The notes under the pieces are model-generated. The model was not told the origin of the DNA. It saw nothing but the letters and a program-made list of their open reading frames with translations, and ran no database searches. Positions 21,715 to 49,788 of a DNA stretch of 64,000 bases are shown here, piece after piece. Both the position numbers and the translations under genes were made by a program. Position 1 is the first letter of the stretch; every line of letters starts with the position of its first letter. Source of the stretch: Acidobacteriota bacterium (GTDB lineage: Bacteria; Acidobacteriota; Holophagae; Holophagales; Holophagaceae); the NCBI GenBank assembly GCA_021794095.1, contig JAJYRN010000003.1, forward strand, positions 124,001 through 188,000, given 5' to 3'.

Positions 21715-23712
21715 TCAACGTGACAAGAATCGCCCGAGAACCACCCACCCGGCCCCGCCCGCCAGGGTCAGGAGAAGGCCGATCCAGGCCAGGCCCAGCG
21801 CCGGATCCCGGTCCACCCGCAGGTTCAGCGCCGGTGGAGGCCCTGGCGCGTAGCCAGCCACATAGAAACGGAAGCCGCGGAACACCAGCGGCTTCCCGGC
21901 CGTGCAGGCACCCCGCGCCAACTCGACCCCGGTGGCATCGGTCACCGCCAGCGTGGCCGACAGGTCGCGCGGATCCGGGCCCTTGGGCCGGTAGATCAGG
22001 TGGATGCGCCCCCCGAGGAACGCCGCACCCACCGGCTGGCCGTCCGGCCCAAAGGACTGGAGCCAGTGGCTTCCGGCGGCCCCCGTCGCGGGATCCCACA
22101 CGCGCAACCGCAGCACTGGATGTCGGGCCTGGGCGCCCGCCTCCGCCTCGGGATCAGGCACGAAATCCGGCTCGAACCGCGCATGGTCGTAGCGGGCCAG
22201 CACGGTCACCGACAGGCCCTTCTCTACGACGAACGGTTTGTCCAGCGTCAGGTCTTCCGTGCGGACCACGCGGCCATTCTCCAGCAGACGGATTTTTCCG
22301 TCCTCGCGGGTGATCAGCACGAAACGCTCCTGCAGCTCGGCGCCCTCGGGATCGTAGCGAAGTGTCATCCCCGGGGGGAGCACGCGCGCCAGATAGGCGC
22401 CATAGGCCTTGTCTTCGACAGGCTGGGCGCTCAGGAGGAGCGCCGCCGAGGCGCCACTGGCCTGGCGGAGCTGGACCTGGATCCAGGGGTTCCGGTAAAA
22501 GGGGGTGCGGCTGAACAGCTCCGGCTTCCCGCCCGGTCCCTTCCGCAGGCCGCCGAAATCCGGATAGATGCCCGTCACCGTGAGGCTGAACCCCGGCAAG
22601 TCCCAGACCTCACCCAGCCGAGCCGGATGCTCCAGGGTCTTGCCCATGAAGCCAAGCACCAGCTTCGGCTCTGTGGGGGGATGGGGACGCAGGGCCTGCA
22701 CCAGGGCGGGGTCGAAGCGATCCCGGTAGACCACGGCGAAGCGTCCCTGGGGTTCATCCCGGCGCCAGCCAGCGGGATCCTGCGCGAAGAGCACACCCAC
22801 CAGGGGCTGCGTGCTTCCCAACCCCAGCATGACCTGGATGGCGGGGTTGGGTGGGCCCTGGGGATCCTCCGTCACCTGGCCGCTGGGGCGGGCATCCGGA
22901 ATGAGCTTCTCCACCTGGTACCGCAGGCCGCCCGGCAGCGCGCCGCCCTGACCGGGTTCGACAGCGCTTGTCCAGGGCGCCGCGCCAGCGGCCCCGGGCG
23001 AATTCCCCAGAACGGCGAGCCGGAAGGCGGGGGAAGATGGGGCCACATGGGCCTGCGCCAGGCGGATCCGGAATCCGGGCAGGGTCAGGGGGCTCTCCGC
23101 AGACCGCGCGGGCTGGAACACCGCTGCGGTCGCGCCCTGAGCCACCCACTGGGACGCCTGCTGGCCCTCCGCGCGGTTCCAGAGGGAAGCCCCGGCCAGC
23201 AGAAGCAGCCCACCCGCCAGCAGCGGACGATCGGGCCTCGTCGTCCATCCTGCCCGCCCCCTCCAGGCCCAGGCCAGGGCCAGTCCCGCCAGGGGCAGGA
23301 GCAGGCTCTCCAGCCAGAGGCTGCGGGCCAGGTCGGGCATCCGCGCGGTGGCCAGCAGGGAGAATGGCGCATTCAGGAAGCCCCCGGGAAGGACTTCTCC
23401 GCCGCGGGCCCGGACCACGGCTGCCCCCGCAGCCAGGGCCAACAGCAGGATGCCGATCAGACATCCAGCCAGGGCGCGGGAGGTGAGGAGGCGGCGGCCC
23501 CGGGCCGGAGTCGCGAAAGCCAGGACCGCCGCCCCAAGCAGGCAGACACCCAAGGGCGCCAGGGCCTGCGCCACAGGGCCGACGCCCCGCCGCTGGAACC
23601 CGGTTTCGAGGGCCATCCAGAGCAGCGCCCAGGCCGCCGTGGCCAATGCCAGTGCGGCCATGGTCCAGGCTCGGCGCGGAAGGGAACGGGAATCGGGGGC
23701 CAGATCGGTCAT
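21715..23712 (-). CDS. ResB-like cytochrome c biogenesis protein
   Basis: 665 residues with membrane helices near residues 15-35, 48-68, 83-100 and 135-180, a large periplasmic domain (about 190-635), and a last helix just before the C-terminus, the plan of ResB/Ccs1. ResB with CcsA (ResC) carries heme to the outside of the membrane and attaches it to apocytochrome c. The C-terminal FRFYVAGYAPGPPP and the NLRVDRDPALGLAWIGLLL segment match the family end. No ccsA lies beside it. The 35-base gap to the upstream fusion gene suggests a shared transcript. Divergent at sequence level, so confidence is moderate. Confidence 0.7.
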   Translation of the reverse strand: MTDLAPDSRSLPRRAWTMAALALATAAWALLWMALETGFQRRGVGPVAQALAPLGVCLLGAAVLAFATPARGRRLLTSRALAGCLIGILLLALAAGAAVVRARGGEVLPGGFLNAPFSLLATARMPDLARSLWLESLLLPLAGLALAWAWRGRAGWTTRPDRPLLAGGLLLLAGASLWNRAEGQQASQWVAQGATAAVFQPARSAESPLTLPGFRIRLAQAHVAPSSPAFRLAVLGNSPGAAGAAPWTSAVEPGQGGALPGGLRYQVEKLIPDARPSGQVTEDPQGPPNPAIQVMLGLGSTQPLVGVLFAQDPAGWRRDEPQGRFAVVYRDRFDPALVQALRPHPPTEPKLVLGFMGKTLEHPARLGEVWDLPGFSLTVTGIYPDFGGLRKGPGGKPELFSRTPFYRNPWIQVQLRQASGASAALLLSAQPVEDKAYGAYLARVLPPGMTLRYDPEGAELQERFVLITREDGKIRLLENGRVVRTEDLTLDKPFVVEKGLSVTVLARYDHARFEPDFVPDPEAEAGAQARHPVLRLRVWDPATGAAGSHWLQSFGPDGQPVGAAFLGGRIHLIYRPKGPDPRDLSATLAVTDATGVELARGACTAGKPLVFRGFRFYVAGYAPGPPPALNLRVDRDPALGLAWIGLLLTLAGGAGWVVLGRFLSR

Positions 23713-23747: not shown

Positions 23748-25469
23748 TCAGACCAGGGCCAGCAGGGCCACCAGGTAGAAGCTGAGGTCCACGCTCAGTT
23801 CGAAGCGGTGTCGCCCCGTGGTGAAACGCTCATGGTAGAGCCAGAGGTAGAGCATGGGGTAGCTGGCGCAGAGCACCAGCACCAGGGCCACAGCCATGGG
23901 ATGGCCCTCGGCATGGCTCTGGAACGTCAGCCAGAGGGTGCCCGCCAGCAGGGTGCTCAACAGGAGCACCAGCACGGCCTTGGTGGCGCGCTTGCCGAGC
24001 AGAATGGGTAGGGTTTCCTTGCCCACGATCTGATCGTTCTGCATGTCGCGGATCTCGTAGATCACCGTCCGGACGAAGGCCAGCACCCCCACCAGGAAGA
24101 GCGCCGCGAAGGCACGGAGATCCCAGACGCGGCCCTGCTGCCACACGGGCATGGCCACCGCCACCGTGGCCAGGGCCACCGCCACCAGCACATCCTTGGA
24201 GCCGGGAATGGAGCGCAGGCTCAGCGTCCTGGGGCCCAGGCGGACAGGCCGCTTGTAGGCCGCGCCCAGGAGGGCGGCCGCCACAATCACGACCAGGGCC
24301 CGGGTGCCGAGACTGGCCGCCAGCCCCAGCGTGATCACCAGGGCCACGATTCCAGAACTCATCAGCTTGCGGCGGTTGCGCTCCAGGAACCTCGCCCGGG
24401 CGGGCCCCTTGGCGCCGGTTCCCAGGGGATCCAGGAAGGGGCTCAGCAGGTACATGGACAGCACGTACGAGGCCGTGACCAGCGGGTAGCGCCAGCTGGC
24501 GGGCAGACCCAGCCATTTGTGGACGCCCACGGTCATCAGTGCCGCGCCCAGGGCCAGCAGCGACGAGCTGCCGAAGGCCGCCTGGAGGAAGCTGCGCCAG
24601 CGGCTGGGGCCGCTGCCGAGCTGCTCCAGCACATCCACCACCTCGTCCACCAGCCAGGTGGGCGTGGAGGCGCCTGCCAGCACGCCCACGGTCTCGCGGC
24701 CCGTGAAGGTGCCCAGATCCAGCTCCGCGGCCGTCTCCACATACTGCACGGGCTTGCCGTAGTGGTGCGCCAGCTCCGCCAGGTGCTTGGTATTGCTGGA
24801 AGTCTTGCCGCCCACCACGATCACCGCGTCCACCGTGCGGGCCAGGTCGCGGGCCTCCTCCTGGCGTCGCCAGGTGTCCTCGCAGATGGTGTTCTCGAAG
24901 ATGGCATCGCCCGCCCGGCCGCGGATGTAGTCCGTGATCGCGTGGTAGTCCTTCACAGTGAACGTGGTCTGGGCCACCACCAGCACCTTCGACAGCTGCT
25001 CGTCCGTGAGGGCCTGCGCCTCCTCCATGTTCGCGACGATGACGCTGCCGCTCTCGGCGAAGCTGCGGTGTGCCACGCTCTCCGCGTGGCCATGGCTGCC
25101 GAGGATCACCGTGAAGTAGCCCTTCGGGCTCCACTTCTTGATCTTGCTATGAACCTTCGCGACTTCCGGGCAGGTGGCATTCACGATCTTCAGTTCGCCC
25201 TGCTTCTGGCGCTCCTTCAGGCCCCGCAGGTCCTGGATGGGAATGCCATGGGCGCGGATGACGACGGTGCCGCGCTCCACCTGCTGGGGGTCCGCAGCCA
25301 CCGCCACACCCCGCCGGCCGATCAATTCCAGCGCCTGGGGATTGTGGATCAGGGGGCCCAGGGTCTGCACCGTCCCGCCCTTGCTGCGCGCCGAGGCCTC
25401 CAGCACCGCATCCATGGCCCGCTTCACGCCCCAGCAGAAGCCCGCGGTCTTGGCGACGATCACTTTCAT
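23748..25469 (-). CDS. ispH: IspH - UbiA-like prenyltransferase fusion
   Basis: 573 residues. Residues 1-285 are a complete IspH (HMBPP reductase, last step of the MEP isoprenoid pathway): iron-sulfur cysteines 12, 100 and 196, plus His42, His74, His128, Glu130, Asn226 and the GAST segment at 267. Residues 295-573 are a polytopic membrane domain like UbiA prenyltransferases, with the second Asp motif RDMQNDQIVGKETLP (Asp475, Asp479) and YKRPVRLGPR; the first Asp motif is only partly recognisable (around Asp347). No stop or frameshift separates the parts. Start ATG 25469 gives the normal IspH N-terminus. Product channelling from IPP/DMAPP synthesis to a membrane prenyl transfer is a natural inference. 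Confidence 0.9.
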   Translation of the reverse strand: MKVIVAKTAGFCWGVKRAMDAVLEASARSKGGTVQTLGPLIHNPQALELIGRRGVAVAADPQQVERGTVVIRAHGIPIQDLRGLKERQKQGELKIVNATCPEVAKVHSKIKKWSPKGYFTVILGSHGHAESVAHRSFAESGSVIVANMEEAQALTDEQLSKVLVVAQTTFTVKDYHAITDYIRGRAGDAIFENTICEDTWRRQEEARDLARTVDAVIVVGGKTSSNTKHLAELAHHYGKPVQYVETAAELDLGTFTGRETVGVLAGASTPTWLVDEVVDVLEQLGSGPSRWRSFLQAAFGSSSLLALGAALMTVGVHKWLGLPASWRYPLVTASYVLSMYLLSPFLDPLGTGAKGPARARFLERNRRKLMSSGIVALVITLGLAASLGTRALVVIVAAALLGAAYKRPVRLGPRTLSLRSIPGSKDVLVAVALATVAVAMPVWQQGRVWDLRAFAALFLVGVLAFVRTVIYEIRDMQNDQIVGKETLPILLGKRATKAVLVLLLSTLLAGTLWLTFQSHAEGHPMAVALVLVLCASYPMLYLWLYHERFTTGRHRFELSVDLSFYLVALLALV

Positions 25470-48951: not shown

Positions 48952-49788
48952 ATGCGCCTCGCTGTCCAGGCTCCCGCCAAACTGAACCGATTCCTCGCCG
49001 TGCTGGGCCGGCGGGCGGATGGCTTTCACGAGCTGGAGCTGGTGACGACGGTGCTGGAAGGTGTGCCCGATCTTGAGGACACCCTCTCAGGTGAACCGGC
49101 GGACGCCCTGTCCCTGGCGATCTCCGGCCCCACGGGGGCGGGGCTGACGGCCGATGAATCGAACCTGGTGATCCGCGCCTGGCGCCTGTTGGAGGCCACC
49201 GCGCAGCGCCCCCTGCCCGCCACCCTGCGCCTGGAGAAGCGGATTCCCCACGGCGCCGGACTCGGCGGCGGCAGCAGCGACGCCGCCGCCGCCCTGCGCC
49301 TGGGCAACCGGCTCTTCGAACTCGGCCTGCACGATGCCAGCCTCCTGCCCCTGGCCGCGCGCCTGGGCAGCGATGTCCCCCTGTTCCTCCTGGGCGGCAC
49401 CGTGCTGGGGCTGGGGCGGGGCGAGCGGGTGTTCCCCCTGCGGCCCGTGCCCCTGGAGCCGCTCCTGCTCGTGCATCCCGGCCTGCACGTTTCGACACCC
49501 AGTGTCTATCGCGCGCTCCAGGACATCGGCTACCCCTTCCCGGAGGCCCTGGCCTCGCAACCCGGCGGGGCCGCGCCGCCCTGGCGGAATGACCTCACGG
49601 GCGCGACCCTGTGGGTCTGCCCGCCCCTGGCAGAAGTGCGCGAGGCCCTGCGCGACACCGGGGGCGAGCCTCTGCTCTGCGGCTCCGGCAGCTGCTGGGC
49701 AGCCCGATATGCCGACCCGGCCGGACGTGACGCCGCGGCCGGCCGCATCGCCGCCGCCCGGCCCGATTGGCGCCTCTGGCGGATCTGA
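48952..49788 (+). CDS. ispE: 4-diphosphocytidyl-2-C-methyl-D-erythritol kinase
   Basis: 278 residues. ATP-dependent kinase of the MEP isoprenoid pathway, so it acts upstream of the IspH encoded at 23748-25469. Seen: VQAPAKLNRFLAVLGRRADGFHEL, the GHMP ATP-binding loop IPHGAGLGGGSSDAA, and GSDVPLFLLGGT. The C-terminal motif GSGSCWAARY (usually GSGxxxF) is present with Trp/Ala. Start ATG 48952 lies 23 bases from the divergent thioesterase remnant. Confidence 0.93.
   Translation: MRLAVQAPAKLNRFLAVLGRRADGFHELELVTTVLEGVPDLEDTLSGEPADALSLAISGPTGAGLTADESNLVIRAWRLLEATAQRPLPATLRLEKRIPHGAGLGGGSSDAAAALRLGNRLFELGLHDASLLPLAARLGSDVPLFLLGGTVLGLGRGERVFPLRPVPLEPLLLVHPGLHVSTPSVYRALQDIGYPFPEALASQPGGAAPPWRNDLTGATLWVCPPLAEVREALRDTGGEPLLCGSGSCWAARYADPAGRDAAAGRIAAARPDWRLWRI

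Follow-up and report, generated by a model that had tools for sequence, protein, structure and literature searches.

Fusion of IspH to a UbiA-type domain

What does a UbiA-type membrane domain do when it is attached to IspH? The question is posed by a gene in a 64,000-nucleotide stretch of DNA (the window) from a Geothrix-like bacterium, in which the only IspH, the enzyme that catalyzes the final step on the way to the isoprenoid building blocks, is covalently joined to such a domain. Fusions of this type are already known. Rao et al. (2015; PMC4746011) reported 47 IspH-UbiA sequences in sulfate reducers, noted two DXXXD motifs in them and put forward membrane localization or anchoring together with a local supply of IPP and DMAPP; their attempts to express the full-length active protein failed. 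A later paper using the IspH-UbiA term merely cites this work. A preliminary description of the locus, which had named fusions with ribosomal protein S1 as the only known ones for IspH, is corrected on this point by the 2015 report. A literature search of open-licence papers turned up none that deals with the fusions of Geothrix or Nitrospinota.

What is added here are the hosts and the state of the motifs. The fusion occurs as sole IspH in two further phyla beyond the sulfate reducers, and there is evidence that its UbiA active site was remodeled, in some lineages to the point of breakage, without loss of the fusion. With these new hosts, the single clade formed by the fused IspHs and the reshaped active site, the question from 2015 can now be put to the test: does the membrane half serve as an enzyme, as a sensor or as an anchor?

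The gene lies at 23748..25469 on the minus strand (the preliminary description gave no strand) and consists of 573 codons and one terminal stop in one open frame without interruption. Residues 1-284 of the 573 make up the IspH portion, and the UbiA-fold portion follows at the C-terminal end in the same frame. The IspH (LytB) domain (residues 3-281; 24627..25463, minus strand) covers the whole PF02401 (LYTB) profile of Pfam (E 1.2e-79, 267.8 bits) and reaches 252.7 bits with TIGR00216, against a cut-off of 187.85. When the model of the full protein was searched with Foldseek, IspH structures ranked at the top and UbiA structures next.

The three Cys ligands of the 4Fe-4S cluster, Cys12 (25434..25436), Cys100 (25170..25172) and Cys196 (24882..24884; all on the minus strand), are invariant in an alignment of 25 fused homologues, as are His42, His74, His128, Glu130, Thr169, Asn226 and Ser268. 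All of these positions are known to be important in IspH. The host genome (3.0 Mb, 99% complete) has no IspH other than the fused protein, and in 13 further genomes with the fusion there is likewise no other full IspH. As the host genome contains no other IspH, we infer that the fusion has IspH reductase activity. In a Nitrospinota genome that also has the fusion, a second LytB match was seen (G060:C77:12548-13219), which is weak (46 bits, in a 320-residue frame).

The IspH-RPS1 fusions resemble the window protein in that IspH carries a C-terminal extension in one polypeptide. Their partner is ribosomal protein S1, whereas Pfam and NCBIfam find no S1 domain in the window protein. The similarity to the "Rosetta stone" proteins of Rao et al. 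(2015) is closer: IspH comes first and UbiA second, the size is similar, and separate UbiA or MenA proteins are encoded elsewhere (PMC4746011).

Profile matches and predicted fold of the membrane half

By profile and predicted structure, the C-terminal half belongs to the UbiA superfamily. The domain spans residues 303-573 approximately (23751..24563, minus strand) and has nine long helices in the AlphaFold2 model. PF01040 (UbiA) matches residues 367-548 of the full protein above the curated cut-off (E 1.6e-14), and the UbiA half searched alone gives E 2.9e-15, so that this is not an unrelated membrane family, a concern of the preliminary description. In four of the five fused domains compared with the profile, the match begins only at its positions 65-70, past the first Asp-rich motif, which was the first hint that this motif is unusual. 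All NCBIfam UbiA cut-offs are missed by far.

The AlphaFold2 model of the full protein (pLDDT 83.9, pTM 0.69) leaves the relative placing of the two domains uncertain; the UbiA half modeled alone has a pLDDT of 83.4 and a pTM of 0.83. In VIA-align comparisons, this half matched A. pernix UbiA (4od4/4od5) best, with Z 19.3 over 252-254 residues at 3.1 A. Since soluble prenyl synthases, which share the helical fold, also reach Z 15-16, the fold evidence speaks for the superfamily and not for a function. In the model, one motif sits at the end of the second long helix of the domain and the other at the end of the sixth, an arrangement shared with known UbiA proteins. A PDB sequence search with the single UbiA half gave no reliable match. 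When a profile was used, the second motif aligned with that of solved DGGGP synthase and chlorophyll synthase. Profile against profile, the match of the fused domain to the genome's own MqnP was weak and yielded no residue mapping.

Distribution and descent of the fusion

Of 297 Acidobacteriota genomes, 36 have a full-length fusion; they belong to Holophagaceae, where the fusion is kept across the genomes sampled, to a second family of Holophagae and to three further, scattered families. Among 77 Nitrospinota genomes, 11 have a full-length fusion, and a twelfth match is a stand-alone protein. Geothrix rubra, G. fermentans, G. campi and G. terrae are among the named carriers; the one genome scan behind these names gave no sequences from Desulfobacterota. 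The hosts reported by Rao et al. (2015), in contrast, were Desulfobacterales and other sulfate reducers. The homologue search returned full-length identities of 70-87% for congeners and 33-39% for distant relatives. Viral contigs contained no relative of the fusion, and the best of the phage matches listed cover the IspH half only.

In the IspH-domain tree, all 27 fused sequences fall into one group (support 100/99), and unfused IspHs of the same two phyla, including those of a third Holophagae family, lie outside it. This supports one origin of the fusion within the Acidobacteriota and Nitrospinota set. As the fused IspHs form a single clade, the arrangement appears to be long-lived and not the product of repeated accidents. 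In the UbiA-domain tree, the deeper branches are weakly placed, and stand-alone relatives are found inside this weakly supported part. An assembly or sequencing artefact or a frameshift that joined two neighboring genes, against which the preliminary description had cautioned, has a negligible probability, because open frames of the same length are conserved in more than 30 congeners, in other families and in another phylum, genomes with the fusion have no second full IspH, both domain trees give full support to Holophagaceae and to the second Holophagae family, and no point in favor of an artefact was found.

The first Asp-rich motif is altered

Motif positions were assigned via a stand-alone archaeal (Natronomonas) relative, L095, whose first motif aligns with that of solved DGGGP synthase. 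For 74 fused domains, we tabulated the columns that correspond to Asn68, Asp72, Asp76, Tyr139, Asp198 and Asp202 of A. fulgidus UbiA. In the window protein, the first motif is located in residues 343-361 (SPFLDPLGTGAKGPARARF; 24387..24443, minus strand), where it was judged by alignment and dN/dS. It reads Ser343-Pro-Phe-Leu-Asp347 instead of the canonical N-x-x-x-D-x-x-x-D, with the first Asp kept and the Asn and last Asp absent; in the alignment, Ser343 takes the position of Asn68 and Asp347 that of Asp72. The second motif, Asp475-x-x-x-Asp479 (24033..24047, minus strand), is intact, with Asp479 invariant and Asp475 nearly so. The preliminary description had recognized this pair correctly as a UbiA Asp motif, without mention of the altered first one. 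A. pernix and A. fulgidus UbiA, MqnP, CyoE and DGGGP synthase share the UbiA fold, the second Asp motif and the catalytic Tyr with the fused domain, but are stand-alone proteins with a first motif of the N-D-x-x-D-x-x-x-D type.

The last Asp of the first motif is absent from all 74 fused domains. By their published description, the proteins of Rao et al. (2015; PMC4746011) differ in having two DXXXD motifs, of which the window protein has the second only and none of the 74 domains the first. Over the tabulated columns, Holophagaceae show the pattern (S/T)-D-x-Y-D-D in 45 of 50 cases, with Ala in the first position in three and Asn in two, so that Ser, Thr or Ala replaces Asn68 in 48/50. Nitrospinota uniformly show N-D-(I/V/M/A)-Y-D-D (11/11). 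The second Holophagae family has N-D, N-S or N-N, followed by Y-D-D, and the first-motif Asp is changed to Ser in 4/9 and to Asn in 1/9. Two genomes of Acidobacteriota family f20 read N-D-R-Y-(I/V)-N and have lost the second motif with the full domain kept (DIWIIQSN in L123:6314-8083, DIWVIQSN in L124:7130-8899). The second motif is also altered in f9, in f27 and in one Holophagaceae genome. The UbiA fold is kept in all lineages of the table.

Changes at several of these positions have been studied in other UbiA proteins. In A. fulgidus UbiA, GPP binding is abolished by N68A and by D72A and weakened 45-fold by D198A and 21-fold by D202A, Asp76 is no direct metal ligand, and the equivalent changes in EcMenA cause loss of function (PMC4106721). 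Human UBIAD1 (first motif N102TYYDFSKG) is active without the last Asp, and its N102S variant has blunted activity and a lower GGPP affinity (PMC9314443). As Asp76 is not a direct ligand and UBIAD1 does without it, only the Asn and the first Asp of motif 1 appear decisive, and we dropped the idea that the missing last Asp alone would make the fused domain inactive.

The altered first motif casts doubt on ordinary prenyl transfer; catalysis may remain. In other prenyl-diphosphate enzymes, Mg2+ can be coordinated by Ser and Thr, and UBIAD1 works without the last Asp, so that loss of catalysis is not implied.

An unusual first motif was also seen in two stand-alone Bacteroidota UbiA-like proteins (L092:5401-6282 and L093:5803-6726), which represent another UbiA group. 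They keep the second motif (DIRDMQND and DIRDMQAD), and His and Thr replace the Asn and Asp of the first.

Constraint on the pocket

Pairwise dN/dS counts were obtained for 37 Geothrix-type genes (661 pairs with a whole-gene dS of 0.2-1.2); since the sequences are related, the counts are descriptive of constraint and do not amount to a formal test. IspH had a value of 0.12 and the whole UbiA domain one of 0.24, against 0.03 in the stretch with motif 1 (residues 344-362) and 0.08 in that with motif 2 (residues 470-493). When the UbiA domain of these genes is scanned in windows of 19 residues, the ten with the highest conservation all start at residues 344-347 or 463-471. Residue 343, the Asn equivalent, varies between Ser, Thr and Asn. 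The lineage-specific form P-F/Y-L-D-P-x-G-x-G-x-K-G-P of the first motif is maintained. Simple erosion of this motif in Geothrix can thus be ruled out, and the low dN/dS and high conservation of the motif stretches indicate a pocket that is selected and not decaying. A pocket that is altered but selected suggests that a ligand is still handled by the Holophagaceae domain, with an isoprenoid diphosphate as the most plausible candidate.

Possible roles of the membrane half

The best overall explanation, to which we give about an even chance, is a membrane-tethered IspH with a selected, non-canonical isoprenoid-diphosphate pocket. It builds on what is directly established, namely a single gene, a sole IspH with complete IspH residues, the UbiA fold and a conserved fusion. 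The cell's only IspH would be made as a membrane protein. Its N-terminal domain would be a normal 4Fe-4S HMBPP reductase that produces IPP and DMAPP, and the UbiA-fold domain would keep it on the cytoplasmic side of the membrane, the site at which prenyl diphosphates are lengthened and consumed. In Holophagaceae, the pocket would bind an isoprenoid diphosphate without being an ordinary prenyltransferase. Tethering of the sole IspH follows from the architecture and had been suggested in the preliminary description, as well as by Rao et al. (PMC4746011). Since all lineages keep the fold joined to IspH, and not the complete set of catalytic motifs, tethering, with or without ligand binding, is most likely the role common to all of them. 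That other lineages have repeatedly lost catalytic residues speaks against prenyl transfer as a common function. Tethering may not be the whole story: the conserved pocket exceeds the needs of a plain anchor, and the Nitrospinota fusions, which keep N, D, D and D, may be active transferases.

Rao et al. (2015) and the preliminary description regarded the fusion as a bifunctional enzyme, in which the UbiA half transfers prenyl groups from DMAPP or a longer donor and IspH raises the local supply. We consider this rather unlikely, though it accounts for several observations. Nearly all Holophagaceae retain the Asp pair of motif 2 and the catalytic Tyr, Nitrospinota keep the four Mg-binding residues of A. 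fulgidus UbiA, and both motif regions are under the strongest constraint within the domain. Against it, the Asn ligand is replaced in most Holophagaceae, a type of change that abolishes or blunts ligand binding or activity in the UbiA enzymes studied (PMC4106721, PMC9314443), and the fusion is still in place in f20, in f27 and in half of the second Holophagae family, where catalytic ligands are gone. The word "prenyltransferase" in the preliminary description is therefore too strong, as is its "substrate channelling"; its observation is confirmed and its interpretation partly supported.

Separate quinone and heme prenyltransferases also argue against the bifunctional enzyme. As the preliminary description had suggested looking for, further UbiA genes are present: the host genome has four UbiA-type genes, one MqnP-like (TIGR01475 above cut-off), one CyoE-like, one without family assignment and the fused domain. 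With the MqnP-like and CyoE-like proteins encoded separately, the fused domain is not required as a quinone or heme enzyme, which rules it out as a missing quinone enzyme. Nearly all fusion genomes (13 further genomes checked) also encode a stand-alone canonical UbiA, and in the single-contig genome G039 there are two UbiA genes in all, a canonical one and the fused one.

Alternatively, the UbiA half could be an isoprenoid sensor that binds a prenyl diphosphate and feeds back on IspH, a reading that we hold to be improbable. The analogy is to UBIAD1, the UbiA protein by which animals sense GGPP at HMG-CoA reductase, the key enzyme of the other route to isoprenoids (PMC9314443). There too, a protein of UbiA fold and a key enzyme of isoprenoid synthesis are physically held together at the membrane (PDB 8djk), and the UbiA protein shares with the fused domain the absence of the last Asp and a similar fold (Z 15.8 by VIA-align). 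A selected but non-canonical pocket would fit a sensor, as would the Ser, Thr or Ala at the position of Asn102 in 48/50 Holophagaceae. However, the UBIAD1 complex is non-covalent, eukaryotic and part of the mevalonate pathway, and UBIAD1 is a proven prenyltransferase as well as a GGPP sensor (PMC9314443). Moreover, the Asn102Ser variant of UBIAD1 senses GGPP less well, not better, the fusion persists in lineages without motif 2, and the argument is one of analogy. In its boldest form, in which the Holophagaceae domain would be a former prenyltransferase turned into a built-in sensor controlling IspH, an independent, covalent MEP counterpart of UBIAD1-HMG-CoA reductase, we regard the idea as a long shot.

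Gene neighborhood

The neighbors of the fusion bear on the bifunctional enzyme as well. At a Nitrospinota locus, L046, the fusion comes directly after a gene for a menaquinone-biosynthesis decarboxylase (L046:767-2452; TIGR03701 above cut-off), a point in favor of the bifunctional enzyme. This was the only locus with an mqnL-type neighbor. A comparison of fusion neighborhoods across lineages found no common neighbor and no conserved gene of an acceptor pathway, which counts against the bifunctional enzyme, and as neighbors differ between lineages, the neighborhood was dropped as a clue to the acceptor. In the window, ispE (48952-49701, plus strand) is indeed present, as described before; at about 23 kb from the fusion, it is not clustered with it.

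Other features of the neighborhoods were seen in passing. In the window, a gene on the minus strand (21715..23712), 36 bases downstream of the fusion, encodes a 665-residue protein with several hydrophobic segments and no match in Pfam or NCBIfam. At L046, the UbiD C-terminal domain occurs again in the next frame (1954-2385), perhaps due to a frameshift or a duplicated piece. At four loci of the second Holophagae family (L018, L019, L022 and L023), a xylose-isomerase-like TIM-barrel gene abuts or slightly overlaps the fusion; in L019, the one of the four that was scanned, it is an AP_endonuc_2 protein.
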